The position numbers were made by a program, and so were the translations under genes. A DNA stretch of 64,000 bases, taken from positions 1 to 64,000 of the forward strand of contig QIBA01000031.1 in NCBI GenBank assembly GCA_003225175.1, read 5' to 3'. The stretch's first letter is position 1. Every line of letters begins with the position of its first letter. Positions 12,774 through 29,818 of the stretch are shown here, piece after piece. The DNA is from Acidobacteriota bacterium. GTDB lineage: Bacteria; Acidobacteriota; Terriglobia; Terriglobales; Acidobacteriaceae. Under the pieces are notes generated by a model, which saw nothing but the letters and a program-made list of their open reading frames with translations, had not been told where the DNA came from and did no database searches.

Positions 12774-14507
12774 ATGTCCGAACTAACGCGCCGCAAAGTC
12801 TTGGCGGCCCTCTCATTTGCTGCTGCAGGATGCTGCGCTAGCCTTGCTGAGATGCAGTTCTCATCCTGGAACGCATCCACCAACTCAAATTTTTTACTAC
12901 CAGCCAAAGGCAGAGGGCTGTTCGAGGAAGTCCCATCTACAATCAGCGGGATCAATTGGCGGCACGTGAACGGCCGGTCACAGCAATACTATTTGCCCGA
13001 GACTACGGGAGCAGGCTGCGCATTCCTCGACTACGACAATGATGGCTGGATGGACATCTATCTCGTAAACAGCGGAAAGTGCGATTTCTTCGCACCGGAT
13101 CCTCCGCTTCGCAATGCGCTCTACCGCAACAACCGAAACGGGACCTTCACCGATGTGACCGAAAAGGCTGGCGTAGCGGCAGGCGGATATGGCATGGGAG
13201 TTGCCGTTGGGGACTACGATGCGGACGGATGGCCAGATCTATACGTGAGCCAATACGGGCGCAGCATTCTCTATCGCAACAATCGCGACGGAACGTTCAC
13301 GGACGTGACCGAAAAGGCCGGTGTAACGGCTCCGGGCTGGGCATCCAGTGCGGTGTGGTTCGACTACGACAATGATGGGAAGTTGGATCTCTTCGTGTGT
13401 CGTTTCGTGGATTTCGACAAGTCCAAAAACAAATTTTGCGGCAACGAGCACACTGGCGAGCGCTACTATTGCATACCGAATGCGTATGAACCTGCTCGCA
13501 GCTGGCTGTTCCACAACAACGGCGACGGCACTTTCACGGATGTGAGTCTTGAGTCAGGTATCGGCAAAGTCCCGGGAAAAGCGTGGGGAGTGGTTGCTAC
13601 TGACGTGAACAATGATGGTTTGATAGATCTGTTTGTGGCCAACGACACAGTTGCGAACTTCCTCTTCGTGAATAAAGGTAACAGCAAGTTTCAGGAAATG
13701 GGACTCGAGGCGGGAGTTGGGTATAGCCAGGATGGTCGCACGCGTTCCGGAATGGGAGTAGATTCGGCAGACTTCGACCAGGACGGTTGGCAAGACCTAT
13801 TCGTCACAAACGTCGATCAGGAAATGTATTCGATCTACCACAACAGTCACGACCTTACTTTCGATGATCTCGCCGGACCGATGGGCCTTGGACGTTTGAC
13901 GCGGCTGATGAGCGGCTGGGGCCTGAAGTTTTTCGATTATGACAACGACGGGAACGTCGATTTGTTCATTGCCAACGGTCATCCTGATGACAAGATCGAG
14001 CAGCACTCCACGCACGTGACCTACCGAGAGCCGCTGCTGCTTTTCCGCAACAATGGGAAGGATCTTGAGAATGTAAGCGCCAATGCTGGTCCAGCTTTCA
14101 CTCAGAGTTTCGCCGCCCGTGGCATGGCGATCGGCGACTTCAACAATGACGGCGCGGTGGATGTTGTGGTGGCAGTGAATGATGGGCCCCCGCTTTTGTT
14201 GAGAAACACCGCGGCAGCTGGCAATCACTGGCTGGGTGTGCGCCTCATCGGTAAGAAGGTGAACCCGGACGCGATCGGCGCAAGAATTACGTGGCAGGCA
14301 GGCGACTTAAAACGCAGCAGATTAAAAGTCGGTGGGGGCAGTTATCTGTCATCCCACGACCCGCGTGAAGTGCTGGGCATCGGCAAGCGCACGAAGATCG
14401 ATAGGCTCGACATCCGATGGCCGCAACCCAGCGGCCGCGTGGAAACGTTCACAGATGTTCCCATTGATCGATACATCACAATCGTGGAAGGCGCCGGCAT
14501 TAAGTAA
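12774..14507 (+). CDS. CRTAC1-type exported protein with VCBS/FG-GAP repeats and UnbV domain
   Basis: 577 residues. The start [17 protein letters not shown] could be a Tat signal (twin Arg) with a lipobox. Seven calcium-binding D-x-D-x-D-G motifs follow at regular spacing (for example [42 protein letters not shown]), predicting a seven-bladed propeller. The end is an ASPIC/UnbV domain ([12 protein letters not shown], then [18 protein letters not shown] and IRWPSG-like [13 protein letters not shown]). Proteins of this family are surface or periplasmic, of unknown function. Convergent with the cytochrome gene 65 bp away; a paralogue is at 15795. A decayed glycosyltransferase lies upstream. Confidence 0.92.
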
Positions 14508-14572: not shown

Positions 14573-15826
14573 CTAGACCGGATACTTCTCGCCAGGACGT
14601 GCAACGCGGATGCGGTGGTCCGTGAACTGAAAGTGTGCGCCAGGTAATTCCACCTTCGGCATGTGACAGCTCACGCATCCGTCTTTCCCTACAGGACATG
14701 CTCTCGCGAGGTCGCTTGCAGGCGATCGTTTACCTGCCGATTTGGAAGATTGATTTGCTGCGCTGACGGCAGTCCTACGGACGGAATGACAACTCGAGCA
14801 GTTTGCGTCGTAGGCGACAGCGTCCTTGTTTAGATCGACATGAGGATCATGGCAGGCTGTGCAGGCAAAATGCGGATCGCTCGTGCTGTGGCCACGGCTG
14901 CTTGCCATACGGTAAGGCTGAAAGCGCACATTATTGATGCCTCCCAAATCGGGCATCATTCCGACAGTGTCAGCGCTGCGGTGGCAAGCTCCGCAGAATT
15001 GCTGCGATAAAGTGTCTGGATCGACGTTTTTGGGATTGAAAATATACGTACCGTCCCCGCTGCCAGTGCGCATCGCGACAACGTGGGTTGCCCCCGGTCC
15101 GTGACATGCTTCACAGGAGACACCGGGCATCAGATGCTCAAGATTTAGTTTCTTATCCACAAGCGCTCCGGTTCCATGGCAGCTGAAGCAGTTCCGCGCT
15201 TCATCGCTGTTGATGTCACGACCGAATGCTTCTTCGAGAGTTGGCGCAGAGCTCTGGACATCTCCGATGGTCCAATCCAGGCGATCAATGCGGGAGTAGT
15301 AGCTCACCCGACCCTCGTAGAGCTTGCCGTGGTGCTGCAAAACGTAGGTCTGTGCGACATAGCCATTCCCAAATGCGTACAGGACGGGCTCAATTATGGT
15401 GTTCTCCCCATCTGTGACCCAGAAAAAAGCCTTGCCATCCGCATATGAGATCTCGTAAGAGTATTTTTCGAAGCTGAACTGCATTCGGGGATGAGATTTA
15501 AGCACAGCGCTGGCTTCGGGCTTGAGCAGCGCATGTTCCATTGCAGTATGAGAGCGGGACTTTTGAGCGTGACATCCGGCGCACACTTCACGTCCGACAA
15601 ACTGTTCACCGGGCATCTCCATTCGCGGACGGAAATGCAAGAAAGGATCGGAAGTGTGCGGCGCCGCCTGTGAAAAACCAAAACAGGAACACGCGAGCAG
15701 GCAAAGGGCCTCCGAGAAGAACAGGAAGAGAAACGACCTGAGCCGAGCGAGAGTTTGCAAGACCCTCGTGATCAAGCTGGCGCAACTTCCGGAGCTACTG
15801 ATTGAGCACTCCTTGCCCTTCGACAA
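14573..15826 (-). CDS. heptahaem c-type cytochrome
   Basis: 417 residues including a hydrophobic export segment (about 30-52). Seven CXXCH haem sites are visible: CAGCH, CFSCH, CEACH, CGACH, CTACH, CSSCH and CVSCH. Other histidines, such as HVDLNKD after CHDPH, could be distal ligands. Spacing recalls the multihaem cytochromes related to cytochrome c554 and NrfB-type carriers, but no catalytic CXXCK is seen. It should carry electrons in the periplasm or at the outer membrane. It overlaps the end of the CRTAC1 gene by 32 bp, beginning with TTG (15826) or an internal TTG; translation is probably coupled. Last gene of a five-gene minus-strand run. Confidence 0.9.
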   Translation of the reverse strand: MSKGKECSISSSGSCASLITRVLQTLARLRSFLFLFFSEALCLLACSCFGFSQAAPHTSDPFLHFRPRMEMPGEQFVGREVCAGCHAQKSRSHTAMEHALLKPEASAVLKSHPRMQFSFEKYSYEISYADGKAFFWVTDGENTIIEPVLYAFGNGYVAQTYVLQHHGKLYEGRVSYYSRIDRLDWTIGDVQSSAPTLEEAFGRDINSDEARNCFSCHGTGALVDKKLNLEHLMPGVSCEACHGPGATHVVAMRTGSGDGTYIFNPKNVDPDTLSQQFCGACHRSADTVGMMPDLGGINNVRFQPYRMASSRGHSTSDPHFACTACHDPHVDLNKDAVAYDANCSSCHSVRRTAVSAANQSSKSAGKRSPASDLARACPVGKDGCVSCHMPKVELPGAHFQFTDHRIRVARPGEKYPV

Positions 15827-17612
15827 CGGTAAAGAAACGATTGACTTCGAAAGCCCCTATTTCTTCCCTCCTGCCACTCGGCCAATAGATCTCAACCTTG
15901 TCCACCTTTGTAGCTGGCCCCAAGCCAAAGTGAATGCGTTGATCGGAAGTTGAGCCGTAGCTACCTCCGCTGATCACGTCGCCGCGTTGCCTGATAGCAC
16001 TTGCGGTTACGAAGACCCTTGCTCCGACAGCGTCGCGTGGACTCTTAGCACCTCCGACTAGCTTGAAAGCAATCCAGTGGTTGTCATTCTCTACCACATT
16101 GCGCAGGAGAGTCGGAGCAGTGTCCATGTTGTTCAGCATTACGTCAATGTGACCATCATTGAAGATGTCGCCAAAAGCGGCTCCCCGTGCTGGAATCACA
16201 TCTGCGAGTCCGCTTCCGGTTGCGGGAGATACCTCCATGAACTTCTTTGCGTCGATGCTGCGAAACAGCAATGGCCGCTGCGCCCACGTTGTTCCCCAAT
16301 CACGTTGATCTACCCAGGGATACACGTGGCCGTTAGCTACGAAGAGATCCAGCAGTCCGTCATTGTCAAAGTCGATGAAGCCTGTTCCCCAGCCCAGAAA
16401 GGGTATAGTCGCGCTACCCAGCCCAGTTTGGAACGTTACCTCAGAGAACGTCATATTGCCGTCGTTACGGTAAAGTGTATTGTAGTCATCCGAAAACACA
16501 GTCACATAGAGATCCGCTTTGCCGTCGCGATTGTAGTCACCGACTGCAATGCCCATAGAGGCTTGAGCGAGTCCCGTATCGGTGAGCGCAAAACCAGACA
16601 GGTAGCTCATGTCTTCAAAAGTCCCATCATGACGATTGCGGTAGAGGTATCGGGGAACTGAGTCGTTCGCCACAACGAGATCGAGCCAACCATCGTCGTC
16701 CAGATCCACAAAGACCGAGGCGAGGCCATAATAGCCCTGCGGATCGGAGACTCCAGCCTTTTTACTCACGTCTGTAAATGTGCCATCACCGTTGTTGTGG
16801 AAGAGGTGATCGCTCTCGCCGGGCAGACCGCGCGGACCACACATCGAAGTAACGCCGCGGAACTGGCACGCACTTGCTGGAATGCCGGCTTGTCCCGGAA
16901 TGGGCGGATGATCGGAATCAAACTTCACATAGCCAGGAACAAACAGATCCAGCAGGCCATCGTGGTCGTAGTCACCCCAAGTGGGTCCGGTCGACCACCC
17001 TCCGAGAGCAACGCCCGCTTTCTCAGTCACGTCGGTAAAGGTTCCATTGTGATTGTTGTGATATAGACGGTTCTTACCGTAGTTCGCGACATAGATGTCT
17101 GACCAGCCGTCGTTATCGTAGTCCGCGACGGCCACGCCAAATCCCCATCGTTCGTTGGCGACCCCCGCTTTGGCTGTAACGTCGGTGAAGGTTCCATCGT
17201 GATTGTTGTGGAACAGCATCGCCTTCGGAGCTAATTCCTTGCCCTTCAATGCAGCAAACGTGGAACCATTAAGCAGATAAATGTCGAGCCAGCCATCATT
17301 GTCGTAATCCAGCAGGGCGACGCCTGAACCAGGAGTTTCCAGGATTCTCTTCTTCTCTGTTCCTCCGGAACGATGTTGAAATTTATCGAGTCCTGCATCT
17401 TTGGTTGCATTGAGAAATACGATAGGGGCGTCAGTGACGAACCCACCTGCGGTGATCGGACGCGACTGCGTGTCTTTAATGGCTGGATGAGGGGTGCCGG
17501 TAGAAACTCCCGTCGATTCTGGCTGTTGTGGTTTGCGGCTTTCGATCTCCTGAGGAAAAACAGGGCAGCACAACGTCGCTAGAACGAGCGTCACGACGAT
17601 AAGCCTGCTCAA
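15795..17612 (-). CDS. CRTAC1-type exported protein, second copy
   Basis: 605 residues with a signal peptide (1-20, ending CPVFPQ). Seven D-x-D-x-D-G-type repeats (DYDNDGWLDIYLLN, DYDHDGLLDLFVPG, DLDDDGWLDLVVAN, DYNRDGKADLYVTV and others) predict a Ca-binding propeller; the last repeat has DIFNDG. The UnbV domain closes the protein (NHWIAFKLVGG, GGSYGSTSDQRIHFGLG, IYWPSGRREEI). Starts with TTG overlapping the TGA of the TPR gene upstream (TTGA), so they are coupled. Paralogue of the gene at 12774, which lacks the preceding TPR genes. Confidence 0.92.
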   Translation of the reverse strand: MSRLIVVTLVLATLCCPVFPQEIESRKPQQPESTGVSTGTPHPAIKDTQSRPITAGGFVTDAPIVFLNATKDAGLDKFQHRSGGTEKKRILETPGSGVALLDYDNDGWLDIYLLNGSTFAALKGKELAPKAMLFHNNHDGTFTDVTAKAGVANERWGFGVAVADYDNDGWSDIYVANYGKNRLYHNNHNGTFTDVTEKAGVALGGWSTGPTWGDYDHDGLLDLFVPGYVKFDSDHPPIPGQAGIPASACQFRGVTSMCGPRGLPGESDHLFHNNGDGTFTDVSKKAGVSDPQGYYGLASVFVDLDDDGWLDLVVANDSVPRYLYRNRHDGTFEDMSYLSGFALTDTGLAQASMGIAVGDYNRDGKADLYVTVFSDDYNTLYRNDGNMTFSEVTFQTGLGSATIPFLGWGTGFIDFDNDGLLDLFVANGHVYPWVDQRDWGTTWAQRPLLFRSIDAKKFMEVSPATGSGLADVIPARGAAFGDIFNDGHIDVMLNNMDTAPTLLRNVVENDNHWIAFKLVGGAKSPRDAVGARVFVTASAIRQRGDVISGGSYGSTSDQRIHFGLGPATKVDKVEIYWPSGRREEIGAFEVNRFFTVVEGQGVLNQ

Positions 17613-18568
17613 TGCGTCTCCGGTTCCGGCTGCTTTGCTACAGATGGAGCTTTGTCCTGATTCGGGACTTCCGAGCGGTTCAGTTCCTCAAGTTTCTTGA
17701 ACGCGGCTTTGGCCTCTTGCTCACGACCGAGCTTTGAATATGCGCGTCCCAGCAGAAAATAACCCTGCTTCATTTGTGGCTCGAGCCTTAGCGACGCTTT
17801 CAGTTCCGGAATAGCGCTCTCCAGTTGACCGCCCTGAAATAGTGCGTTGCCGAGAGCGAAGCGGCCGGCCGCAGCGTTTGGAGCCAGCGAAACCGCTTTC
17901 CGCAGCCATTGAACTGCCTGTGGGTAATCCTGCTTGTATGTATAGCAAGCACCTATTCCATAAGCGACTTCATAACTCAGTGCTCCCGACTGCTCGGCCT
18001 GCACGTAGAACCTGAGCGCCTCGTCAAACTTGGATTGCGAGCGCTTCAGCTCAGCCAGTTCCGTTGCCGCCTCCACCGATCGAGGATTTGCCTTCAAAGC
18101 ATTCAGGAATTCCGCCTCCGCCTCAGCATGATTCTCGGCCGCCAGCGCCGCTTCACCGAGAAGTTGATGGACGCGATCAGAATTGGGATTCAGCGCGAAT
18201 AGTCTCTGATACTCCCGCTGCGAGAGCTCCTTCGCAGTCAATCCGAGGTAATAGAGCGCGTCAATGTTGTGCGGATCGGATGCGAGTGTCCGTCGAAGTT
18301 CTTCGACTGCTCTCACGAACTTCCCCTCAGCGAGTTCAGCCCGCGCGAGCATCACGCGTACTGGAGCGTCGCCAGGATAAGTTCGAAGATGCTTTTCCGC
18401 CAATTGGATCGTCCGGGCATAGTCTCCGCGGTAGAAGGCTCCCGTACATTCCTTGACAGCTGACACTTGCCCAAGGCACTCGGAGCACAGTACGAGAGCG
18501 ACCATGAGCAGCCACGCAGATTGGCAAAAACAATGGGCGCGACACGAAATGCGTAGGGTAGGAGTCAA
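17609..18568 (-). CDS. exported TPR-repeat protein
   Basis: 319 residues; signal sequence in the first 35, then about six tetratricopeptide repeats (for example YARTIQLAEKHLRTYPGDAP, NHAEAEAEFLNALKANPRSV, YPQAVQWLRKAVSLAPNAAA). A scaffold for protein-protein contacts in the periplasm. Start TTG at 18568 overlaps the TGA of the gene upstream and its own stop overlaps the CRTAC1 start, so the order TPR, TPR, CRTAC1, cytochrome is a translationally coupled string. Partner proteins unknown. Confidence 0.85.
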   Translation of the reverse strand: MTPTLRISCRAHCFCQSAWLLMVALVLCSECLGQVSAVKECTGAFYRGDYARTIQLAEKHLRTYPGDAPVRVMLARAELAEGKFVRAVEELRRTLASDPHNIDALYYLGLTAKELSQREYQRLFALNPNSDRVHQLLGEAALAAENHAEAEAEFLNALKANPRSVEAATELAELKRSQSKFDEALRFYVQAEQSGALSYEVAYGIGACYTYKQDYPQAVQWLRKAVSLAPNAAAGRFALGNALFQGGQLESAIPELKASLRLEPQMKQGYFLLGRAYSKLGREQEAKAAFKKLEELNRSEVPNQDKAPSVAKQPEPETH

Positions 18569-20184
18569 GGCTCCTCGAAGGGGCGCACCTCAACGATGCG
18601 CAGGAATTCGCGTGTTTTTTCGTCGAGCAGCTTCTTGAGTTCTTCAAAGCGCCTGGCCTGGGCTTCACGTTGTGGATCACGGGTACGTGTGTAGAGGTTC
18701 AACAGATAGAAGTTGGCGGCGTAGTGGTCGGGATTGATCTCGAGGGCTTGTCGGATGTCTTTGCCAGCCTCTCCGTAGTCTTTTTGCACGAGGTGGTACT
18801 GCCCAAGCTCCGCCCAAGCGTCTGCGTATTTGGCGTTCCCTTTCAACGCTTCTTCTAATTCGCTGTGAGCCTCATCGAGACGGCCTTCCTGTATAGCAAT
18901 GCAGCCAAGATAATAATGCGCTGTACTGGCTGTTGGCGGAGTCTTGACAGCTTCTCGCAACCAGGGATCGGCGGCGTCATAATCTTTTGCTCGGAAGAGA
19001 GCCGCGCCGAGAGCGAGCTTTCCTCGAGGATCTTGCGGCCTCAACTTCAAATATTTTTGGAAATAAGGAACGGCTTCGGCGGGATCATGGCGAAAAGCCG
19101 AGGCCGCTCCCATCGCATAGTTGTAATTGGGATTTTTCGGATCGAGTTTAACCGCCTTCTCAAATGCATTGCGGGCTTCAGCGATGAGATTCAGGTCAAC
19201 GCAGACGAATCCAAAGTAGTAGTAGAGGCTGGCGTTTTTCGGTTCCAGGTCCTGCGCGTGTGCCAAATAGCCCAGAGAACCCTGAAAATCATGTTGCTCG
19301 TACGCGACTCGTGCAAGATCCAGCAAGAGCGCGACCGAGAGCGTTTCCCTTGTTACGGCATGTTCCAGAGCGGCCCGGGCTTCCGCCAGTTGATGTGTGC
19401 GCTCATAAGCCAGTCCCAACGTGTGACGCATCTCGACTGACAGGGCTTGACGAGTATTGAGATTTTGCAGCAGAGAAACCATCAGATCGTCGCGCTTTCC
19501 TGCTTGCAGTGGCACCAACATCTGGCGCATGTCTAACTCGGAAAAATCCGCTGCAGAACTCAGGCGCGCTGCGGCCCCATCAGAGCGAGTCCGATCACCC
19601 AACGCGGAATAGTCCGCGCAAGCGATGGCAAGAGCTTGTGACCGAGTTTGTATCTCCGCCGGTAACCGGTCGAGGTACCGCAGTGAATTCCGGTAAGCAT
19701 TCTGCTGCAGTAGAAGCAGCGCGCTCTGATAATTCGCCTCTGAGTTCTCCGGATCATAGGCAAGTACGTGAGCGTAAACCTGCAAAGCTTTCTGTCCTGC
19801 CTGTCTGTCTGCGCCGGAGTTCTCCTGATAGAGTCTCCCAAGATTCAGGTAAGCGCCTGTGAATTTTGGCTCACGCTTCACAGCACGATCGAAGCTGCTC
19901 TCAGCTTCCTCGTACTTCCCTTCTTGCGCCGCGATGACGCCAAGCAAGTTGTCGAATCCAGGATCTCGCGGAAATTGCTTTATGGCGGTCGAAATCAGGC
20001 GGCGAGCCTCGGCCAGGTTGTGATCTTCTATCAGCTGCTGAACCTGGAGGATTTTTTGATCTCTCTGGCTCGACGCGGACTTCCCGGAATCAGCGCGCAA
20101 TGCGCTCGTAGCCCCCAGGAACAACACCGTCAGGACCATGACCGAAATCGGCGTGCTCTTCACCGTGATGGGGCCGGACATCAC
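18565..20184 (-). CDS. large exported TPR-repeat protein
   Basis: 539 residues with an N-terminal signal (MVLTVLFLGATSALRADS) and roughly ten TPR units, clear at LAEARRLISTAIKQFPRDPG, YEEAESSFDRAVKREPKFTG, IAEARNAFEKAVKLDPKNPN and YGEAGKDIRQALEINPDHYA. It likely assembles or holds the CRTAC1/cytochrome products. It lies 127 bp downstream of the GH31 gene on the same strand; that gap has no obvious terminator, so readthrough from the LacI-controlled promoter is possible. Confidence 0.87.
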   Translation of the reverse strand: MMSGPITVKSTPISVMVLTVLFLGATSALRADSGKSASSQRDQKILQVQQLIEDHNLAEARRLISTAIKQFPRDPGFDNLLGVIAAQEGKYEEAESSFDRAVKREPKFTGAYLNLGRLYQENSGADRQAGQKALQVYAHVLAYDPENSEANYQSALLLLQQNAYRNSLRYLDRLPAEIQTRSQALAIACADYSALGDRTRSDGAAARLSSAADFSELDMRQMLVPLQAGKRDDLMVSLLQNLNTRQALSVEMRHTLGLAYERTHQLAEARAALEHAVTRETLSVALLLDLARVAYEQHDFQGSLGYLAHAQDLEPKNASLYYYFGFVCVDLNLIAEARNAFEKAVKLDPKNPNYNYAMGAASAFRHDPAEAVPYFQKYLKLRPQDPRGKLALGAALFRAKDYDAADPWLREAVKTPPTASTAHYYLGCIAIQEGRLDEAHSELEEALKGNAKYADAWAELGQYHLVQKDYGEAGKDIRQALEINPDHYAANFYLLNLYTRTRDPQREAQARRFEELKKLLDEKTREFLRIVEVRPFEEP

Positions 20185-20310
20185 TGTTTCACTACTGCAG
20201 GCTGAAGAAGGTGCGGAAAAATTATATGTACAGCGTCAAACCTGAATCCGCACAAATTCAGTTGGTTGTTCAATCTGGTACTCCATGCTTCCAATGCTCA
20301 CCGTAAACAG

Positions 20311-22353
20311 CTAGTTGCCTGCCTTGATTTTGAGCTGCTGTATCAAAGGTGAACTGTCCCTGACAAACAGAGGCAATCTGTTGAGCGGTGCAGAATAGCC
20401 ACGCAGCCACTTTCCGCCTTGCAGCGATTCACCGGTGTTGTAATCGCGCCAATGGCCCGCCGGCAAGTAAACATCGCGGCTGGAGGCCTCTTTGGTGACT
20501 ACGGGCGCAACCACAACATCTCCACCAACCATGTATTCGTCCACGATTCTGTAAGTATCTGAATCCTTGGGAGCGTGATACCAAAGAGGCGCAAGAATCG
20601 GTTCGCCGGTTGTGCGCGCACGCGTGGCGAGTTCGAAAATGTAGGGAGCGAACTCGATGTGCAATTCGCTCGCTTCGCGCGCTCGGTCGATAGCTTCCCG
20701 GTCGAAATGCCATGGACCCCAGGAAAACTGCAGCAAAGGCATCAGTGCCGAAGCCTGCGCCCAGCGAATGATCAGCTCCTTGTCGATCTTGTCATTGTCG
20801 TACTGATTTCCACCAACCATGTCGGGCATCAAGTATTGAAACCCGCGGACGGACGACAAGATTGCCTCTGGAATAAGCGATTGCAGGCCATTCATGTTCG
20901 TCCAAACCGAATGCTTATCGATCAGTCTCTGTACGATGCCAAGCGGCTGCGAATAAACTCCCACCCGGGTTTCGTTATAGATGAATTGGGCTGTCGCCTC
21001 TTTGTTATAGACATCGGAGTACTGCGCGTTAGTGATGTTATTGAGGGGCACAGCATCAGTTCCCATGAAGTTCACGTCGGCGCCGTCGAACTTAAAGCCG
21101 TCGAAACCATACTGGGATTGAAGGTCATGCAGCCGTCGCCGAAATTCAGCCGAGGCTTTGGGATTGCTCACGTCCCAGATGGTTGCAGGTCCATTCCACC
21201 AGCGCGTGAGCATAAGCTTTCCCGAATGATCTCGCATCAATAAGCCGTCGTCCTGGTGGTCGCGAAAGGTTCGCGAGTCGGGATTGACGAATGGGTGCAC
21301 CCACAACGTTACCTTGTATCCCAGCCCGTGCAAGGTCGAGACCATGGCTTTGGGATCGGGAAATTTCGCCGAATCGAACTCAGTATCCCCATAGTGATTC
21401 TCCCATCGGTCATCGATCTCAATTACTCCGCAAGGCAACTTGTTGTTGTGAATGTTGTTTGCGTACTCGATCACTTTTTGCTGCGAGACTTCAGTCTTGT
21501 GCTCCACCCAGGTCGTGTAGATCGGTAGTCTGAAATAGTCTGCAGGAGGAGTTTTCGCTGGATATCCGATTTCCTTAATGATACGACGCAATAGAACATT
21601 CAAGTCGCTGTCGAGCAGAATGTCGTAACGGAGCTCTGAAGAGTTGGGCATTTCGATTCTGAGGAGTCCGTCACGTTTGCCGCTGGCTTCTTCGTTCACG
21701 CTGTACTTGAAATCGAATGGAGTGCGAATCCAAACTCCGACGCCTTTTGTCGAGTACCAAAATGGCGTTCCCTGTGTATTTCCATCGGCGAGGAACCATT
21801 TCTTTCTGATGTGAGCGTCATTCACAGGAAGCACCAGAGGATCACGCCATCCTTGAAACCCACCTCCAAACCAATCACCAGAGGGGGCAAGGCGCACTGC
21901 AGCGTTGGGCGTAGGGGACGCCGACCCATCAAGAATCCACGATTTCACGTGCAGGACGTTTTCTTCCGCCTGTAGCTCGACGCGGGCGACAACATCCTTG
22001 TGTGTAGTGTCGTAAGAAAGAATGTAGGTATTCCCATTCTTCTCGACGCGTGTCAGCTTGGTTACATGCTGTGGCTTCTCATCTCTGGAAAATTCGAGAC
22101 TCGTAGCCGCGTCTCCCGGGCGCCCTGTCTCAAAGATCAGTTCTTCTCCGCGGCTAACGGAAATCACAAACGTATCCTTCGAAATGCGAGTGAGATAATT
22201 GCCCATTCGGATGACGACGTCTTCCGTCGCTTTTGGAGTATCAACCTGCCCATAGACCAGCGGAACAATGACAATGAACAGGAGGGTTGTCTCCAGCAAG
22301 CGGCAGGCTGATCGGGTGAATCTTCCGGACGTAATCAAAGTGATTGCCTCCAC
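20311..22353 (-). CDS. glycoside hydrolase family 31, MYORG-like alpha-galactosidase/glucosidase
   Basis: 680 residues with an export signal. GH31 landmarks: IEIDDRWENHYGD, KVTLWVHPFVNPDS, TRWWNGPATIWDVSNPKA, FKFDGADVNFMG (nucleophile Asp in KFDGAD), a later PDMVGGNQYDND (acid/base region) and DEYMVGGDVVVAPV before the C-terminal beta domains. The WVHPFVN and RWWNG strings match the mammalian MYORG subgroup, reported as an alpha-galactosidase, better than classic maltases, so alpha-galactoside is my preferred substrate. The frame opens at GTG 22353; a TTG at 22338, eight bases past GGAGG, is the likelier start. A LacI twin operator overlaps its promoter. Confidence 0.9.
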   Translation of the reverse strand: MEAITLITSGRFTRSACRLLETTLLFIVIVPLVYGQVDTPKATEDVVIRMGNYLTRISKDTFVISVSRGEELIFETGRPGDAATSLEFSRDEKPQHVTKLTRVEKNGNTYILSYDTTHKDVVARVELQAEENVLHVKSWILDGSASPTPNAAVRLAPSGDWFGGGFQGWRDPLVLPVNDAHIRKKWFLADGNTQGTPFWYSTKGVGVWIRTPFDFKYSVNEEASGKRDGLLRIEMPNSSELRYDILLDSDLNVLLRRIIKEIGYPAKTPPADYFRLPIYTTWVEHKTEVSQQKVIEYANNIHNNKLPCGVIEIDDRWENHYGDTEFDSAKFPDPKAMVSTLHGLGYKVTLWVHPFVNPDSRTFRDHQDDGLLMRDHSGKLMLTRWWNGPATIWDVSNPKASAEFRRRLHDLQSQYGFDGFKFDGADVNFMGTDAVPLNNITNAQYSDVYNKEATAQFIYNETRVGVYSQPLGIVQRLIDKHSVWTNMNGLQSLIPEAILSSVRGFQYLMPDMVGGNQYDNDKIDKELIIRWAQASALMPLLQFSWGPWHFDREAIDRAREASELHIEFAPYIFELATRARTTGEPILAPLWYHAPKDSDTYRIVDEYMVGGDVVVAPVVTKEASSRDVYLPAGHWRDYNTGESLQGGKWLRGYSAPLNRLPLFVRDSSPLIQQLKIKAGN

Positions 22354-22383
22354 TGGGGCACGGAATTAGCAAAATTTAAACAC

Positions 22384-22440
22384 GCAAGCGGTTGCGGTAA
22401 ACGGTTGCGCCTTGATACTATTTGCGGGCTTCGGTGTCAA
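22384..22440 (-). promoter_or_regulatory. promoter and twin LacI-type operator for the GH31 run
   Basis: On the minus strand TTGACA (22440-22435), a 17-bp spacer and TATCAA (22417-22412) form a good sigma-70 promoter. Directly downstream are two operator-like sites, GCAAGCGGTTGC (22384-22395) and GTAAACGGTTGC (22397-22408), set 13 bp apart. Consensus GYAANCGNTTGC is typical of LacI-family sites. Binding would block transcript initiation. The same pair recurs at 23838-23862. Confidence 0.85.
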
Positions 22441-22607: not shown

Positions 22608-23711
22608 ATGGGTATAAGTGGCATGTCAAGTAAGGAACTTCGAACGACGTCTCGAATGAAAGACGTAGCCGAGCGGGTCGGCGTGTCGGTAACCACCGTC
22701 TCCCACGTCATCAACAAGACCAGACCGGTCGCTCCGGAGACCCGGCGCGAGGTACTTAAGGCAATTCAAGAACTGAATTTCTACAAGAATGCGCATGCGC
22801 GGCTGCTGGCGAGAGGCAAAAGTGATTTCTTCGGTCTAATCGTGTCCGATGTCGGAAATCCATTCTTTCCCGACATCATCAAGAGCTTCGAAACTCGGTC
22901 GCTCGAACAAGGATTCGATCTTCTCCTCTGCAACACGAATTATGACTCCGCCCGCACGGAAACAGCCGTAAAGAGAATGATCGAGAACAAAGTGCGGGGT
23001 GTCGCAGTAATGACTTCAGAGTTTAGTCCGGCATTGGCAAAAGAACTTGCGGCAAACCACGTTGCGGTGGTTTTTCTCGATCTCGGCACAGTTCAAACGC
23101 TCACAAGTAACCTTCGTATCGACTATTCCCGTGGCATCTTTCAGGCAATCAATCACCTGCACGATCACGGTCATTCAGACTTCGCTTTCATCGCGGGCCC
23201 TATGAACTTACGGTCGTCCGTTACGCGTCGGACGGCCTTTATTGATGCCTTGCGAAGATGTGGCGTGCGCTCTTACCGCACCATCGACGGCAACCACAAA
23301 GTGGATGGTGGAATCTCCGCGGTACACACGTTACTGCAGGTTCGTGCGTTGCCCACAGCCCTTCTATGCAGCAACGATCTCACCGCGATCGGGGCGCTTC
23401 GCGCACTAGACAAGGCTGGAGTCAGGGTTCCCGACGACGTTTCCGTAGTGGGATTTGATGACATCTACTGGTCCCAACTATCTCATCCACCCCTCACGAC
23501 CATCAGCGTGTCGCGTGATCGACTCGGGGATCTGGCCTATGAAGCGCTCGGCCGTATGCTGCGGTCGAAACGTCACGCAGGTGCCGAGTACATTTTGGAG
23601 ACGCACCTGGTGATCCGTCAGTCAACCGCCCCGATGCGCAGAGCGCATTCTTTAGTCGCCGCGGCTGCGGGCGGTTCTTCCGCCACTCCAGAGGTACCCG
23701 AGCACGCATAG
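22608..23711 (+). CDS. LacI-family transcriptional regulator
   Basis: 367 residues. Helix-turn-helix and hinge at residues 16-70 (MKDVAERVGVSVTTVSHVIN, then LNFYKNAHARLLARGKSDFFG), followed by a periplasmic-binding-protein-like sugar domain (GLIVSDVGNPFFPDIIKSFE, VVFLDLG, AFIAGP, ALLCSNDLTAIGALRAL, VSVVGFDDIYWSQLSHPPLTT). The effector sugar is unknown. ATG at 22608 or 22623 could start it. It sits between the two promoters carrying identical twin operators and is the obvious regulator of both, and probably a specific one for GH31 and the TonB receptor. Confidence 0.95.
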   Translation: MGISGMSSKELRTTSRMKDVAERVGVSVTTVSHVINKTRPVAPETRREVLKAIQELNFYKNAHARLLARGKSDFFGLIVSDVGNPFFPDIIKSFETRSLEQGFDLLLCNTNYDSARTETAVKRMIENKVRGVAVMTSEFSPALAKELAANHVAVVFLDLGTVQTLTSNLRIDYSRGIFQAINHLHDHGHSDFAFIAGPMNLRSSVTRRTAFIDALRRCGVRSYRTIDGNHKVDGGISAVHTLLQVRALPTALLCSNDLTAIGALRALDKAGVRVPDDVSVVGFDDIYWSQLSHPPLTTISVSRDRLGDLAYEALGRMLRSKRHAGAEYILETHLVIRQSTAPMRRAHSLVAAAAGGSSATPEVPEHA

Positions 23712-24053
23712 AGCAAGCCTGCGCCCGTGATTCCCGCTCGGCTTCCAGGTCCGCTGATCAAAAGCCATTACCAGCACCCCACCCGAGACCGTAAAAACAC
23801 TTGACAACTACTCTCGATGAGGCTTAGCTTGCCAGACGCAAGCGCTTGCGGCAAACGCTTGCGCATGTGTTGCCGGCCCCCAAGTTCCAGCAGTCAGCGA
23901 TCGTTCAGTTCTTCTGAATGGAATGTTAAGAAGAACGATGTTGACAACCAAAAATCAGTAGAACAGTATCCGCCAGCCCCTCGTGTTGGATCTTCGCCAA
24001 ACGCTAGGGCACCCGAAGATCTCGCGACGGGCCTCAACTGTGAGGAGACCACC
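23712..24053. other. regulatory leader between LacI gene and TonB-dependent receptor
   Basis: 342 bp with no separate gene. It contains the promoter and twin operator at 23802-23862 and an untranslated leader of about 190 bases before the receptor start. The receptor frame is open back to 23817, but that extension would translate the operator and lacks a ribosome-binding site. Confidence 0.7.
23802..23862 (+). promoter_or_regulatory. promoter and twin LacI-type operator for the TonB-dependent receptor
   Basis: TTGACA (23802-23807), 17 bp, then TTAGCT (23825-23830, weak -10). Just after come GCAAGCGCTTGC (23838-23849, perfect palindrome) and GCAAACGCTTGC (23851-23862), again 13 bp apart. Same sequence, spacing and placement relative to the promoter as at 22384-22408, on the opposite side of the LacI gene. 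Confidence 0.85.
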
Positions 24054-27000
24054 ATGTCCGTGAGAGAACTCCGACAGACACGCTCGGTATTCTGTTTCGT
24101 TTTGGCACTTGGCGTTGCGCTGTTCGTCTTCGCCGCTCACGCTTTTCCACAAGGCACAAATGCCACGCTGAGCGGCATCGTGACCGATCCCTCCGGCGCT
24201 GTCATGCCGGGCGCCGACTTGACCCTCACGAACGCAGCCAGTGGCTTCGAGGCGAAGTCAACGTCGAATGAAAGAGGGGAGTACACCTTCCGCAATTTGG
24301 TTCCAGGAACCTACGATTTGAAGGTTTCCAAAATCGGGTTTTCGACGTACTTGCAGAAAGACATTGTGTTGACCATCAACCAGGCCGGTCACGTGGACGC
24401 TGCTCTCAAGGTAGGTTCGCAGACAGAAACTGTCTCGGTTTCGGCTGACACTACTCTCCTCAACTACGACAACGCGACTGTTCAGGGCGGCATCGATCCC
24501 GAGACCCTGAAAGCTTTGCCACTGACTGTCGAAGGTAAACCGCGTTCTGCGGCAGCGTTGGTGGTACTCGAGCCGGGCGTAACGACGGGAAGTTCAAATC
24601 AAGCATTCCAGGCGCGCATCAATGGTGGAGTGGAGTCGGGTGATGAGGCGCTCATGGACGGCGCTACGATGCAGGAAGGCTTTATGAGCCAAAGCGGCAT
24701 GGTTTCCATCCACCAGGATTTCCAGATGTCGCCGGACATGGTTCAGGAAGTAAAGGTCATCGCCTCAAACTACGATGCCCAATATGGCGGCTCCACCTCT
24801 GCTCAAGTGGCAGTGGTTACGAAATCGGGAAGTAACAGCTATCACGGGGCAATCTTTGAGTACGCGCGAAACAAGGCACTAAACGCGAAGCCTTGGAACG
24901 CCAATCCATGTCCCGCGACGAAGCCAGGTTGCGATCAGCGTCCGCCGGACAACGAGCACAACTTTGGTGCGAACTTCGGCGGGCCGATCAAGATTCCGAA
25001 AATCTACGAAGGCACCTCGAAGCACAAGTCGTATTTCTATTTCAACTGGGAGTCCTACCATCTCGCCGGCGGCTCTTCAGTTCCAACCCTTTCAATCCCT
25101 TCTATCAAGGAGAGGGCTGGCGACTTCACTGACTGGGTGAACTCCGCAGGCGCCGTGATTCCTGTCTATGTTCCAAAAGGCATTAGCGCCGGATGCCAGT
25201 CAGCACTCGGAGCCGTCGCCCCGGGACAACAATTTCCCGGTAACAAGATTCCCGCAGCTTGTTTCAGCCCGATTGCTACCGCCTATATGGCTTTGTTACC
25301 GACGCCAACAAATGCGGCAGCAACGAACAACTACACGCTCTCTCGACCAGTGCCAGATACGCTCACGTCGAACAGCAACGTGTATATGTTCCGCATTGAT
25401 CATAACTACGGGGAGAGCGACAAGTTCTATTTCACCTTCTGGCGCCAATTCGTAGGCCAGAACTTTGCTTCCTCGCTTCCTGCGGCCATAGCCAACGACA
25501 GAACAACGAATCTGCAGAATTCCCCTATCATGCGTTTCAATTGGGAACACGTGTTCTCTCCCAAAATGACCAATCACGTCACGTGGGGATACCTCAATCG
25601 AAACGAGGGAGACACGGTCTTAAACTTAGACCAGATAGGAAAGCTGCCGCAGGTTAAGAATGCAGCGAGCGCAGCGCGACTACCTGCGTTTACGTTTAGC
25701 GACGGATTTACCCAGATATCCAACAACGCTAATAGCAGAACCACTCGCCCAACCTGGGTGCTGAACGATATCGCTACGCGCGTCATCGGAAGCCACACGA
25801 TAACCTTTGGTGGTGAATGGCGAAACGTGCAAGGCAATATCACCAATCGAGCCAACGAGTCGGGAACCTACAACTTCACCCGAGACACCACGGCGGCGGC
25901 CGGTACCCTCACGAGCGGCAGCCCTGTTGCTAGCTTCCTGCTGGGAGCAGTCGCAGGAGGCTCAGTAGATTATCGAACGGTGAGCAGCTGGTATCCGAGG
26001 CAGTGGGTGTATGCCTTCCATGGAAACGACTCGTGGAAGATAACTCCCAAACTCACCTTCAACTACGGATTGCGATGGGACTACTACTCACCGTCGCGGG
26101 AAAAATATGATCGCTTCTCCTTTATCGATCTTGTCGGAACCAATCCTGCTGCTGGCGGACGTGCGGGTCGATTAGCATTCGCTGGCAACTCGTTTGGAGC
26201 GTCGAGTTTCGGCAGCGATTTTCCGGAAGAACCGTGGAAGAAAGGCTTTGCCCCACGTATTGGCGTCGCCTATTCGTGGGACCAGAAGACGGTCGTTCGC
26301 GCCGGCTACGGAGTATTCTTCGCCCAAGCGTTTTATCCAGGCTGGGGCGGTGGAATGGCGCTGGATGGATTCAACCTCAAGGACAATTTTTCTACCAGTG
26401 GACCGATTGGCTCGGGCGGCAACGGAATCGATCCAGCATTCTTCCTGGATCAGGGAGTGCCGGCATTTACTCCTCCACCGTTCATCTCGTCTGCATTTGA
26501 CAATGGCAAGATTCCGACTGCCGCCAATGGCAACGGCAGTGCCTACCGGCCGGTGGACGCGAACCGTCGTCCTTACTCGCAGCAATGGAACTTAACCATT
26601 GAGCGCGAACTTCCTGACAACGTCTCGTTCAGCGTGGCCTATGTCGGCAACAAAGGCACGCGGCTCACTTCGAGCCTCGAACCAGTGAACGTTCTGAATC
26701 CGTTCGCTGCCAACATCAAAGCGCTGGGGACCAAGCTGGGCGACACTTTTGCGGTGACTGACACGTCTAAGGACGGAGTGCCTGCCCCGTATGCTGGTTG
26801 GGCGCAACAGCTGATCAGCGGGGGCGGTTGCTCGCCTACAGTCGCTCAGGCGCTGCTGCCCTTCCCGCAATTCTGCGGACCCCTACAAGGACTGAATGAG
26901 AACCACGGTAACTCCATCTATCATTCATTCCAGGTGAAGGCCGAAAAACGCTATAGCCGTGGGCTGTATATGCTTGTGTCTTACACAGCGTCGAAGCTGA

Positions 27001-27746
27001 TCTCCGACGCTTCGGACAACACGCAGCAGCTTGGTGGCTCGTGGAATGCTACTCAAGGAGTAATCTCGCCATTCGAGAAGCGGCGCGCTCGTTCGATTTC
27101 GTCGGATGATGTTCCGCAAGTACTCTCGGCCGCCTTTGTATACGAACTTCCATTTGGACAGGGCAAGCGCTTCGCAAATCAGGGCGGCGCGGTGAATGCA
27201 CTCGTGGGCGGCTGGCAGATAAGCCCGCTCATACACTGGTCGCGCGGCACCCCAATGTGGTTCCGATCTGGTACGTGCGGCGTCGTTCCTCAGTTCAGGC
27301 AATCCTGCCTGGTAGGAGTTCTGCCGGGCAAGAATCCGTTCCTGCAGGATCCGAACGACTACAACCCCAACAAAGGTTGCGCTGCCAATAACCCTGGCTG
27401 CGCACCGCTCCTTGACATCAACGCGTTCGAACCGGTCTCTAACTTCTCGGCATTCGGTTATACGGGTGTTGGCTCTCGCATCTCAGGATTCCGTGGGCCG
27501 AACTCGAAAAATCTTGACTTTGCACTTACCAAGAACACGAAACTTATGGAGAAGCTAAACTTCCAGCTTCGTTTTCAGTTCTTTAACGCCTTTAACAATC
27601 ACTACTTCTTCGACGCAGCCAACGTGAACAACCAAGGTTCGAGCTTCGCCTTCAACAACGACATCAGTCGCAGCGATTTCGGGAAGTGGACCCGTGGAGT
27701 AAGTTCTCCGCGGACTATCCAGATCGCGGGAAGGTTGGAGTTCTAA
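24054..27746 (+). CDS. Oar-type TonB-dependent receptor, sugar locus
   Basis: 1,230 residues from ATG 24054 (GAGGAG upstream). Signal peptide to about residue 32 (AHAFPQ), then a carboxypeptidase-regulatory-like beta-sandwich (LSGIVTDPSGAVMPGADLTLTN, GEYTFRNLVPGTYDLKVSKIGF), a plug (MSPDMVQEVKVIASNYDAQYGGSTSAQVAVVTKSGSNS-type motif) and a long beta-barrel ending in aromatic GRLEF, as outer-membrane proteins do. In Acidobacteriota such receptors are thought to import glycans. Control by the LacI operator and proximity to GH31 point to an oligosaccharide. Cysteine pairs in the barrel (CPATKPGC) are unusual. Followed by a strong terminator. Confidence 0.92.
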   Translation: MSVRELRQTRSVFCFVLALGVALFVFAAHAFPQGTNATLSGIVTDPSGAVMPGADLTLTNAASGFEAKSTSNERGEYTFRNLVPGTYDLKVSKIGFSTYLQKDIVLTINQAGHVDAALKVGSQTETVSVSADTTLLNYDNATVQGGIDPETLKALPLTVEGKPRSAAALVVLEPGVTTGSSNQAFQARINGGVESGDEALMDGATMQEGFMSQSGMVSIHQDFQMSPDMVQEVKVIASNYDAQYGGSTSAQVAVVTKSGSNSYHGAIFEYARNKALNAKPWNANPCPATKPGCDQRPPDNEHNFGANFGGPIKIPKIYEGTSKHKSYFYFNWESYHLAGGSSVPTLSIPSIKERAGDFTDWVNSAGAVIPVYVPKGISAGCQSALGAVAPGQQFPGNKIPAACFSPIATAYMALLPTPTNAAATNNYTLSRPVPDTLTSNSNVYMFRIDHNYGESDKFYFTFWRQFVGQNFASSLPAAIANDRTTNLQNSPIMRFNWEHVFSPKMTNHVTWGYLNRNEGDTVLNLDQIGKLPQVKNAASAARLPAFTFSDGFTQISNNANSRTTRPTWVLNDIATRVIGSHTITFGGEWRNVQGNITNRANESGTYNFTRDTTAAAGTLTSGSPVASFLLGAVAGGSVDYRTVSSWYPRQWVYAFHGNDSWKITPKLTFNYGLRWDYYSPSREKYDRFSFIDLVGTNPAAGGRAGRLAFAGNSFGASSFGSDFPEEPWKKGFAPRIGVAYSWDQKTVVRAGYGVFFAQAFYPGWGGGMALDGFNLKDNFSTSGPIGSGGNGIDPAFFLDQGVPAFTPPPFISSAFDNGKIPTAANGNGSAYRPVDANRRPYSQQWNLTIERELPDNVSFSVAYVGNKGTRLTSSLEPVNVLNPFAANIKALGTKLGDTFAVTDTSKDGVPAPYAGWAQQLISGGGCSPTVAQALLPFPQFCGPLQGLNENHGNSIYHSFQVKAEKRYSRGLYMLVSYTASKLISDASDNTQQLGGSWNATQGVISPFEKRRARSISSDDVPQVLSAAFVYELPFGQGKRFANQGGAVNALVGGWQISPLIHWSRGTPMWFRSGTCGVVPQFRQSCLVGVLPGKNPFLQDPNDYNPNKGCAANNPGCAPLLDINAFEPVSNFSAFGYTGVGSRISGFRGPNSKNLDFALTKNTKLMEKLNFQLRFQFFNAFNNHYFFDAANVNNQGSSFAFNNDISRSDFGKWTRGVSSPRTIQIAGRLEF

Positions 27747-27844: not shown

Positions 27845-28852
27845 TTATTTAACTGAATTCTGTTTCTTTTTGATCTCTTGAAATCGGTCGATCTCCAGCT
27901 TCGCCGACTTGGTGTCTCCGAGCTTTTGATAGATTCGTCCCAGTAAGTAATGCGGCTCAGCGTACGTTTGGTCAAGTGTAGAAGCTTGTTGAAGCGGCTG
28001 CACCGCCTCGCTGTATCGCCCCTGCATTTCCAGCACTCGGCCCAACTGATAGTGAGCCTGCGGAAGAGCGGCATCATAGCTTAACGCTTCTCTTAACCTA
28101 TTTTCCGCATCCGTAAGCTGGTTCATCGCAATTAGAGAGGCAGCCAAATCGACGTGTGGCCACGGAGATGGCTTCGCCTGGAGCCGATTCAGTTCAATTG
28201 CGCGATTGTAGTTCTTCACTGCGGCATCAAGTTGTCCCAAGTAGTCGTAACAGAGACCGAGCAGGTCATATGCTCGGACCATTTTGGGATCAATCTTGAC
28301 TATGGTTTGCAGCCGAGTGATAGCCGAAGCGTAATTGTGGGCATCGTAATCGAAGCGGGCCAGCCAATATCTGTATAGGACGTCGTCAGGTTTTGCGGTT
28401 GCGAGTCTTTCCATCTGCTGACGGGCCCAGTCTTGCCGGCCGAGCTTAACGTATGCCATCGCCAGAGTAAAGCTGCTGCGCTCGTCGAGCGGAGCAATTG
28501 CTTCCGCTTTTTTCCACGCGATAGCTGAGTTGAGGTATTGGCCGTCGAGAAAAAAAATGCCCCCGGCCGCCTCCAATAAGCGGGCGGCGCGAATCGAAGT
28601 AGGATCGCGATTAGCTTCATCTACGAGGAGTTGCTCAGCGGGTTTATATTCCCGTTTCTCGATCTCCTGCTCAAGCAGCGCACGCTGAGCAGCACCAAGG
28701 CCTAAGCTAGAAACATCATGCGGGATAGTTGCGAGTCGACTATCGGCCGGCGGAGTTGTGGACGATTGCGACGGCTGAGCCGATGACAACGAGGCGCTCA
28801 GTAGCACCAAGATCGCGAGCGTTCGCCGCGTGGTCCTGTATCTTTGAATCAT
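27845..28852 (-). CDS. exported TPR-repeat protein
   Basis: 335 residues: signal peptide (LAILVLLSASLSSAQ), a Ser/Thr-rich linker, then about seven TPR units (YLNSAIAWKKAEAIAPLDER, YASAITRLQTIVKIDPKMVR, YSEAVQPLQQASTLDQTYAE, LGDTKSAKLEIDRFQEIKKK). Probable periplasmic scaffold. It follows another TPR gene by 12 bp on the same strand and is convergent with the receptor. The pair mirrors the two TPR genes at 17609-20184. Confidence 0.85.
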   Translation of the reverse strand: MIQRYRTTRRTLAILVLLSASLSSAQPSQSSTTPPADSRLATIPHDVSSLGLGAAQRALLEQEIEKREYKPAEQLLVDEANRDPTSIRAARLLEAAGGIFFLDGQYLNSAIAWKKAEAIAPLDERSSFTLAMAYVKLGRQDWARQQMERLATAKPDDVLYRYWLARFDYDAHNYASAITRLQTIVKIDPKMVRAYDLLGLCYDYLGQLDAAVKNYNRAIELNRLQAKPSPWPHVDLAASLIAMNQLTDAENRLREALSYDAALPQAHYQLGRVLEMQGRYSEAVQPLQQASTLDQTYAEPHYLLGRIYQKLGDTKSAKLEIDRFQEIKKKQNSVK

Positions 28853-28864: not shown

Positions 28865-29818
28865 TCAACTGGACGATGATGCACTCTTCGCAGCTTCGAT
28901 CTTTTGTTTGGCTTCGGCCGCGGTTTTGCTTTCGGGCTCCAGCCTCAACTCAAGATTGATATTCTCCAGCGCTTCATCAAATCTCTTCAGTTCCAGGTAG
29001 ATCAATGCTATTCCGAGATGGATTTCCGGTAGGTTTGGATCTGCGAGCGCGGCCTTTTTATAGGCGTCGAGGGCAAGATCATACTTTTCCTGACCCGCAT
29101 ATTCCTGGCCTAACGCCTGCTGCAACCGTGCCGACTTGGGATTCACATCAAGGATCTGCTGATACGACCACTCGAAGAGCTTCGTCCACGCCCGGCCTAA
29201 TTGATACGAGTATTCCGGCTCAGCAGGAGACAACTGTACAACGGTCTGCCGTTCCAGCACCGCTGCGATCCAGTTATTCGCGGCCTCGTATGCTTTTGCC
29301 AACTGCAGGTGAGCTTGCGGCTGTTGCGGCATGAGCACAGCGGCGCGTTTGAGCTCGCGCACTGCTTCCGCATTTCGTCCGATTGCGAGCAGGCTTGAGC
29401 CGAGCAAGAGGCGAGAAGGGGCATAGTCCGGCTGCAACGCTATCGCTTCCCGAAACCGCGCAATCGCCTGTTGATGATTGCCCCGCTCCTGTTCAATCAC
29501 GCCTAGATTATGAAAGATCAGCGGATGCTTGATCCCTTGTCGCAAAGCGCTGGCGAAAATGTTTTGGGCTGTATCAAGATCGCCCGACTTCAGAGCCGAG
29601 ACGCCCGGAGCAAGCCGACTCGCAACTTCTGGGGGTAAATCCATGGGTTTTCCCGCAGTCTGTGCGGTTAGGCCGATCGAGAAGAGAAGGCATTCTCCAA
29701 TAAGCAGACCCAGTGCCCGGGCTGTTACAAGCCAAACAGATTTAGAGTCGATATTCTCCATTGAAGTGCCCATGGAATGCCCCTGTCCTTCCAACTTACC
29801 AAGCAGATCTACGAACAT
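28865..29818 (-). CDS. exported TPR-repeat protein
   Basis: 317 residues as the longest frame; ATG at 29773 or 29761 would give a better signal peptide start (hydrophobic GLLIGECLLFSIGLTAQ). Six or so TPR units (HQQAIARFREAIALQPDYAP, NAEAVRELKRAAVLMPQQPQ, YDLALDAYKKAALADPNLPE). First gene of a two-gene TPR operon. The high lysine/glutamate end and repeats are ordinary; partners unknown. Confidence 0.82.
   Translation of the reverse strand: MFVDLLGKLEGQGHSMGTSMENIDSKSVWLVTARALGLLIGECLLFSIGLTAQTAGKPMDLPPEVASRLAPGVSALKSGDLDTAQNIFASALRQGIKHPLIFHNLGVIEQERGNHQQAIARFREAIALQPDYAPSRLLLGSSLLAIGRNAEAVRELKRAAVLMPQQPQAHLQLAKAYEAANNWIAAVLERQTVVQLSPAEPEYSYQLGRAWTKLFEWSYQQILDVNPKSARLQQALGQEYAGQEKYDLALDAYKKAALADPNLPEIHLGIALIYLELKRFDEALENINLELRLEPESKTAAEAKQKIEAAKSASSSS

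Follow-up and report, generated by a model that had tools for sequence, protein, structure and literature searches.

We analysed a 64,000-nucleotide stretch of an Acidobacteriaceae draft genome (GenBank assembly GCA_003225175.1, contig QIBA01000031.1, positions 1 to 64,000; hereafter the window), in which five minus-strand genes at 14573-22353 had been read, from the letters alone, as a possible sugar-responsive operon. The five genes encode a glycoside hydrolase family 31 (GH31) enzyme, two tetratricopeptide repeat (TPR) proteins, a CRTAC1-family protein and a c-type cytochrome with seven haem motifs. Sequence comparison places all five in a conserved ten-gene locus at 12774-29818, which we interpret, with a probability of roughly 0.6, as a substrate-induced locus for the acquisition of alpha-galactosides. 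A second CRTAC1 gene, a TonB-dependent receptor gene and two further TPR genes belong to this locus and were overlooked by that sequence-only reading, which is partly supported overall.

The extent of the locus is defined by its relatives. A scan of named genomes with a cytochrome alignment found two close ones (L063 and L064, 59-61% identity), on contigs labelled gp2, and the minus-strand CRTAC1 protein of the window (CRTACa, 15795..17612), run against a class-wide sample of 399 genomes, found 92 genomes at E 1e-200, of which the seven nearest, at 79-81% identity in that search, fall in a single genus and include L063 and L064. We refer to these seven as gp2 (subgroup-2 Acidobacteria), a label that rests on the two named contigs. 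Where the gp2 contigs permit, the gene order is LacI, TonB receptor, two opposite-strand TPR genes, the genes for TPRl and TPRs, an opposite-strand glycosidase gene, CRTACa and the cytochrome, after which the second CRTAC1 gene, CRTACb, comes next on the opposite strand in four gp2 loci (two cut by a contig end) and something else stands there in three. Identity to the window proteins across the seven loci is 55-59% for the cytochrome (14573..15826, -), 77-80% for CRTACa, 65-71% for TPRs (17609..18568, -) and 59-67% for TPRl (18565..20184, -), and the four loci that have CRTACb (12774..14507, +) beside the cytochrome give 79-85% for that protein. At the other end of the locus the receptor (23817..27746, +) is 57-66% identical in the five genomes whose contigs reach it, TPRx (27845..28852, -; 56-65%) stands beside the receptor in five of the seven loci, and TPRy (28865..29818, -; 61-66%), the final conserved gene, is present in six, in one at a contig end. 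The LacI repressor (22608..23711, +), at 41-46% identity, lies upstream of the receptor in four of the five gp2 loci that could be read there, in one of them in two frames. Nine of the ten genes are thus conserved, and none of the six genes flanking the window locus has a match in the seven gp2 loci, so that we take 12774-29818 as the unit.

Control by a sugar was part of the sequence-only reading, and predicted operators bear it out. A tandem of two CG-centred palindromes with a 13-bp spacing, a predicted LacI-type operator, lies at the GH31 promoter (22384..22409), and a palindrome search places a second at the promoter of the TonB receptor (23838..23863), with none expected in shuffled sequence; in the 5.73 Mb draft genome of the same organism, searched with a slightly looser pattern and two mismatches allowed, the tandem is unique to those two places. 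By eye, each copy sits just downstream of a TTGACA-N17 promoter, the classical position for a repressor site. The predicted GH31 promoter, TTGACA-N17-TATCAA (22412..22440, -), ends 2 bp from its operator, the predicted receptor promoter is TTGACA-N17-TTAGCT (23801..23829, +), and a sigma-70 consensus scan reported neither. The longest open reading frame of the receptor begins upstream of its operator (23817-24054), and automatic annotation could bury the operator inside the gene; the real start is probably an ATG near 24054. The repressor gene, divergent from the GH31 gene, encodes a LacI helix-turn-helix and a periplasmic-binding-like sensor (Pfam) and has nearby, as in the LacI/GalR family, a palindromic CG-centred operator to which the repressor is predicted to bind.

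The gp2 relatives carry a comparable palindrome, CGTAANCGNTTACG, between the glycosidase gene and the divergent CRTACa-cytochrome pair in 7/7 loci, although in L277 and L279 the longest called reading frames run over the site. An exact copy of this palindrome also precedes the receptor in four gp2 genomes, and a fifth has one there with a single mismatch; two of these five genomes then show a further copy, with three mismatches, at the same 13-bp spacing. Across the seven whole gp2 genomes, 11 of the 16 exact CGTAANCGNTTACG sites fall in the locus, while a reversed control pattern gives six sites in total. Repressor and operator also appear to change together, in a single contrast: the PurR-like recognition helix VTTVSHVINKTR (VTTVSH) of the window repressor goes with a GCAA operator, and TATVSHVINKTR (TATVSH) goes with GTAA in four gp2 genomes. 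The unique operators of the window, the site in all seven gp2 loci and the covariation of helix and operator are our best evidence that cytochrome and alpha-galactosidase respond to one signal, and they give good support to the prediction that the cytochrome is controlled by sugar. We also looked for operators of this kind at further loci of the cytochrome family that have sugar or LacI genes, scanning 17 loci for perfect CG-centred palindromes of 14 bp close to the starts of genes; only two palindromes were seen (L176 and L031), neither repeated in its own locus, and this candidate was rejected.

The glycosidase of the window (20311..22353, -; Pfam PF01055 and PF21365) is a predicted exported alpha-galactosidase. 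Among solved structures it is closest to human MYORG (E 4.3e-86) and to the GH31 alpha-galactosidases, as the sequence-only description of an MYORG-like enzyme had anticipated. MYORG is an alpha-galactosidase, and all nine checkable active-site residues named in the accessible part of the paper (W321, D353, D354, W426, K461, D463, R504, R517 and D520; PMC9491548) are identical in the window enzyme, the positions having been counted by hand along the alignment, with D213 outside it and R507, named in one sentence, unmapped. The nucleophile, the acid/base and the galactose-binding residues of the MYORG type are therefore among those retained; the window protein is bacterial and exported, with its activity predicted. 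A GH31 counterpart is absent from all seven gp2 loci, and a GH27 alpha-galactosidase occupies its position in every one (two called by Pfam Melibiase_2, the other five by similarity to the first, 761-799 bits). GH27 and GH31 are both families of clan GH-D. Given this replacement and the retention of the MYORG residues, the activity appears to be conserved while the enzyme family changed once, and the proposed link between glycoside cleavage and a heptahaem cytochrome holds to the extent that a predicted alpha-galactosidase is found at 8/8 loci. The expected gene order elsewhere is recovered in part, most of the module being present in the seven gp2 genomes with GH27 in place of GH31 and on the other strand. 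A conserved GH31-cytochrome pair as such was rejected, since homologues of this GH31 (36-58% identity, E 1e-60 or better) were found in just 3/398 other genomes sampled from the class, on contigs 8 to 12 kb long in which no cytochrome of the heptahaem family was found.

All five minus-strand reading frames of the original proposal were confirmed at their positions and in their families. The last four overlap by 4, 4 and 32 bp, as had been noted, while the intergenic gap ahead of the GH31 gene (20185-20310) measures 126 bp and not 127. Pfam profiles place the GH31, TPR and CRTAC1 proteins far over the cut-offs and the cytochrome, matched by multihaem cytochrome families, over by less (for instance 33.8 against 30 and 32.4 against 20.8), and with the haem motifs invariant and most of the module conserved in seven genomes these assignments are not due to chance. 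TPRs and TPRl, both predicted to be exported, as well as TPRx and TPRy, were assigned from Pfam TPR repeats, and the receptor is of the OAR type (PF25183 and PF13620). CRTACa combines a beta-propeller with an ASPIC/UnbV region (Pfam FG-GAP and UnbV_ASPIC), and its structure model matches murine CRTAC1 (9etn, E 4.9e-30) and then beta-propeller lectins and aldos-2-ulose dehydratase, resemblances that make sugar binding by CRTACa plausible. CRTACb, tail to tail with the cytochrome gene, likewise has an FG-GAP propeller and ASPIC/UnbV (Pfam), here behind a twin-arginine-like N-terminus. Among its orthologues a twin-arginine start is seen in the window and in roughly half of 18 alignment rows and an ordinary signal in the others, which suggests different export routes within the family. 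An alien base composition of the island was considered and rejected (G+C content 54.3%, and 54.4% in the rest of the window); transfer of the locus between families is possible.

The cytochrome is predicted to be exported and contains seven CXXCH motifs (residues 82, 213, 238, 278, 322, 343 and 384) that are invariant across a 51-row alignment. Its structure model (mean predicted local distance difference test score 82.6) returned no match below E 0.001 with Foldseek against the PDB. Realignment with VIA gave OcwA (Z 13.5, root mean square deviation 4.0, 277 residues), the Carboxydothermus undecahaem cytochrome (Z 12.5) and MccA (Z 9.7) ahead of the next unrelated row (Z 6.2), with deviations of 4.0-5.3 across 257-277 residues for these three, bearing in mind that a Z under about 8 to 13 can reflect a common arrangement. 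A profile search gave OcwA at E 1.4e-12, the undecahaem protein at 4.9e-8 and cytochrome c554 at 7.8e-8, and it is on the realignment and this search together that a relation to OcwA rests, despite the Foldseek result. The model thus appears to share, over most of its length, the haem-core fold of the OcwA/MccA branch of NrfA-type multihaem cytochromes: OcwA, a cell-surface nonahaem terminal reductase of Thermincola, the S-layer undecahaem cytochrome of Carboxydothermus, which we take to be OmhA, and the sulfite reductase MccA.

According to the part of the OcwA paper available (PMC6703420), a beta-sheet domain sets OcwA and MccA apart from other NrfA-type proteins, and the model of the window protein has this region too, as strands 76-147 between C44 and C175 of the model, which lie between haems 1 and 2. 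The CHGPG-H and CHMP motifs are also in common with the OcwA group, and the family retains the CHMPKV...FTDH motif common to NrfA. Unlike that group, the window cytochrome stands in a sugar locus, has seven haems where OcwA has nine, the Carboxydothermus protein eleven and MccA eight, and in the model has no long helix after haem 7 that could belong to a C-terminal three-helix bundle; we therefore regard it as a fold-sharing relative, outside OcwA or MccA proper. Outside the CXXCH motifs H210, H291 and H366 are invariant and M58, where OcwA and c554 have histidine, is nearly so. As these four conserved candidates for ligands are fewer than the seven haems, at least one haem may have an open site or a variable ligand. 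Nor is the locus of the Mtr porin-cytochrome type, the cytochrome scoring far below the decahaem cut-offs (34.9 against 325 and 32.2 against 192.2), with no such porin among the ten genes.

By sequence the cytochrome is a member of a wide Acidobacterial heptahaem family, with a match at E 0.001 in 28 of 61 genomes (its own included) and at 200 bits or more in 19. Within five genes of the cytochrome in 57 non-duplicate loci, the window among them, TPR-type genes occur in 41, CRTAC1 in 31, TonB receptors in 26, LacI in 10 and GH31-type genes in 5, one of the last (L070) being weak, at 31 bits. Counted per 100 kb, the surroundings of the cytochrome exceed 20 control regions of 20 kb, placed by us at round coordinates and so non-random, in CRTAC1 (5.30 v 0), TPR (6.09 v 0.75), TonB receptors (3.61 v 1.25), LacI (1.13 v 0) and glycosidases of nine GH families (1.24 v 0.25), the nine GH queries being partly drawn from these same loci, with self hits excluded. 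A match to these queries was found in 15/56 loci. Among 50 otherwise unmatched neighbours examined with Pfam, 11 are glycosidases (two each of GH16, GH27 and GH29, and one each of GH20, GH30, GH78, GH92 and GH116), against 0/20 control genes (p 0.017, or 0.034 without the two gp2 GH27s). The 50 were not chosen blind: 10 were cluster representatives or picked, 40 came from a list of 78 with the immediately adjacent (+/-1) neighbours first, and the GH27 of L064 was included on suspicion, while in the control set one long gene (L241) was omitted and a second L230 gene substituted; six neighbours scanned later, one of them a GH5 (L050), are excluded from the 11/50 count. Other neighbours are tRNA synthetases, peptidases and transporters. 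The eight cytochromes linked to an alpha-galactosidase group as a single clade (100/100) in a 61-row tree, and in two neighbouring rows (L176 and L065), both beside glycosidase genes, SRGH replaces a near-invariant cysteine, as it does in the clade.

It remains to weigh what the cytochrome is doing there. It could be a general partner of the Acidobacterial TonB receptor-TPR-CRTAC1 module for any substrate, in envelope redox or maturation, with the alpha-galactosidase merely the cargo of this version. TPR, CRTAC1 and TonB receptor neighbours are indeed far commoner than GH31-type or LacI ones and denser than in the controls, and some neighbours are housekeeping genes; but the operator sets the cytochrome beside the alpha-galactosidase promoter in 7/7 orthologous loci, and glycosidases of many families adjoin it (11/50 v 0/20), so we consider this account unlikely. 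Since glycosidase neighbours are enriched but housekeeping genes also adjoin the cytochrome and most loci lack a GH match, the sugar link is recurrent, not general. Indeed, TPR, CRTAC1 and cytochrome genes with no sugar enzyme detected beside them, an arrangement that the sequence-only reading had named as counting against it, are what many loci of the family present, and none of the eight orthologous loci does. A reductase of small oxyanions, serving respiration or detoxification, produced while sugar is abundant and standing outside sugar handling, would fit the reduction of nitrite, hydroxylamine and electron shuttles by OcwA in the accessible part of PMC6703420, the NrfA-like CHMPKV...FTDH motif and a number of conserved candidate distal ligands, their role presumed, that falls short of the haems. 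This is improbable given only seven haems, a model without the three-helix bundle, ten genes with no reductase partner or quinol dehydrogenase among them, and operators that follow the sugar genes. A third proposal, compatible with our preferred reading and judged separately from it, is that a single LacI-controlled promoter drives GH31, both TPR genes, CRTAC1 and the cytochrome as one message. The head-to-tail order and the overlaps favour it, and the sigma-70 scan reports no site in the 126-bp gap, although the same scan misses both operator promoters; the gap does hold a TATAAT hexamer, wrongly spaced from TTGAC, and in gp2 the TPR-TPR and CRTAC1-cytochrome pairs are separate units split by the opposite-strand GH27 gene. 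We rate one message in the window slightly below an even chance, while a strict single operon behind one promoter, as a conserved arrangement, is rejected in general.

The reading we prefer remains that of an alpha-galactoside acquisition locus. In it, we strongly infer, LacI would repress the receptor and the alpha-galactosidase and cytochrome genes until an alpha-galactoside or its product, the putative ligand, binds the repressor; the receptor would then carry alpha-galactosides over the outer membrane, and the exported GH31 enzyme would remove galactose. The TPR and CRTAC1 proteins would probably act as envelope scaffold and glycan-binding parts. The cytochrome, under the same signal, might be a periplasmic or surface electron carrier or reductase, perhaps taking electrons from oxidation of the imported sugar or, by analogy with OcwA, handing them on to an external acceptor. 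A link with extracellular electron transfer was a guess in the sequence-only reading and is still one, now with a modelled fold relation to OcwA beside it.

Several observations weigh against this reading. No sugar dehydrogenase was found among the ten genes by Pfam, so the cytochrome would need electrons from an enzyme encoded elsewhere, or would act as a reductase. The gp2 GH27 gene and the CRTACa-cytochrome pair lie on opposite strands, and co-transcription of the alpha-galactosidase with the cytochrome is therefore not conserved. The seven gp2 loci come from one genus and are non-independent, which makes them evidence of a single GH27/GH31 exchange and not eight independent tests. Matches to the nine GH queries are missing from 41/56 cytochrome loci, many of them on short contigs. 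Ten loci with the next-nearest CRTACa (63-76%) hold TonB, TPR or second CRTAC1 genes and some GH30, GH3 or LacI, and the cytochrome family was not found in them; G024 combines the receptor (1255 bits) with TPRl (462) and CRTACb (960) and gives no match to the cytochrome at E 0.001; and in L075 the cytochrome accompanies a close receptor (1188 bits) and TPRl (419) with no nameable glycosidase. As modules without the cytochrome exist, it is best seen as an added part of some, kept in all eight alpha-galactosidase loci seen. An obligate pairing of CRTACb with the cytochrome was likewise rejected: among the 61 genomes, the cytochrome at 200 bits or more in 19 and CRTACb at 690 bits or more in 24 coincide in 13 (p 0.004), and 12 further CRTACb regions, many of them TonB receptor-TPR-CRTAC1 settings, contain no cytochrome of the heptahaem family. 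A bolder extension is redox-coupled glycan uptake, in which the repressor would bring out a single machine of the outer envelope, built from the receptor, a glycosidase, the CRTAC1 propellers and a heptahaem cytochrome of its own. Sugar breakdown would then be switched, and would work, jointly with electron transfer on or close to the cell surface, and different Acidobacteria would fit GH27, GH31, GH29, GH16/30, GH116, GH20, GH78 or GH92 enzymes to the same chassis. We put this forward tentatively, as possible though rather unlikely.

Among known systems, the SusC/SusD polysaccharide utilisation loci of Bacteroidetes bring together an outer-membrane TonB receptor, an exported glycosidase and a dedicated regulator in one locus, and the window locus resembles them in this. 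It differs in having TPR and CRTAC1 proteins, a multihaem cytochrome and a LacI regulator, and Pfam finds no SusD family member among the ten genes. In Verrucomicrobia, genes for planctomycete-specific cytochrome c (PSCyt) lie near those for glycosidases and sulfatases (PMC5615132), the nearest published idea that we met; the notion that c-type cytochromes accompany carbohydrate breakdown is common to both, the cytochrome domains are different, and the accessible part of that paper does not describe a LacI-controlled ten-gene locus. ASPIC/UnbV genes are named in tables of the Solibacter genome paper, as far as its available text goes (PMC3174227).

Other features of the cytochrome family came to light. 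In five loci (L039, L048, L073, L078 and L085) a different LacI-type gene stands directly upstream of the cytochrome gene and on the same strand, with a gap of -20 to 78 bp, and may represent a second kind of LacI-cytochrome link. Many weaker cytochrome matches (L162-L172 and similar) fall within frames of up to about 1600 residues and span just about the first two thirds of the cytochrome model, and this partial cover makes it seem that the N-terminal haem region is used in other architectures. One of the next-tier CRTACa loci (L288:15217-15996, +) has a 259-residue frame with seven CXXCH motifs that the window cytochrome query did not match. Secreted-looking proteins of 473-1128 residues lie within five genes of the cytochrome in 15/57 loci (L031-L182, cluster 3); they resemble the Acidobacterial VWFA-related family, and the one member scanned gave no Pfam match at E 1e-5. 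Elsewhere in the window are two more OAR-type TonB receptors, at 46902-50084 and 55953-59162 (-), and one such further receptor adjoins a PIG-L/NPCBM-associated protein (53374-55959).

Acidobacteria are abundant in soil, and to our knowledge their uptake of plant sugars and the roles of their numerous TPR and CRTAC1 genes are largely unknown. We found neither a description of this locus type nor a study of this heptahaem cytochrome family in the open-licence literature, and the locus appears to be a new variant of sugar-utilisation locus, in which sugar uptake is paired with a multihaem electron-transfer protein under one repressor. Its conserved predicted operators would tie a multihaem cytochrome family, fold relatives of extracellular-respiration and sulfite/nitrite enzymes, to the use of alpha-galactosides, and provide a defined class of inducers, a regulon of two promoters and a limited set of genes with which the roles of the CRTAC1/ASPIC-UnbV proteins and of the cytochrome may be probed.

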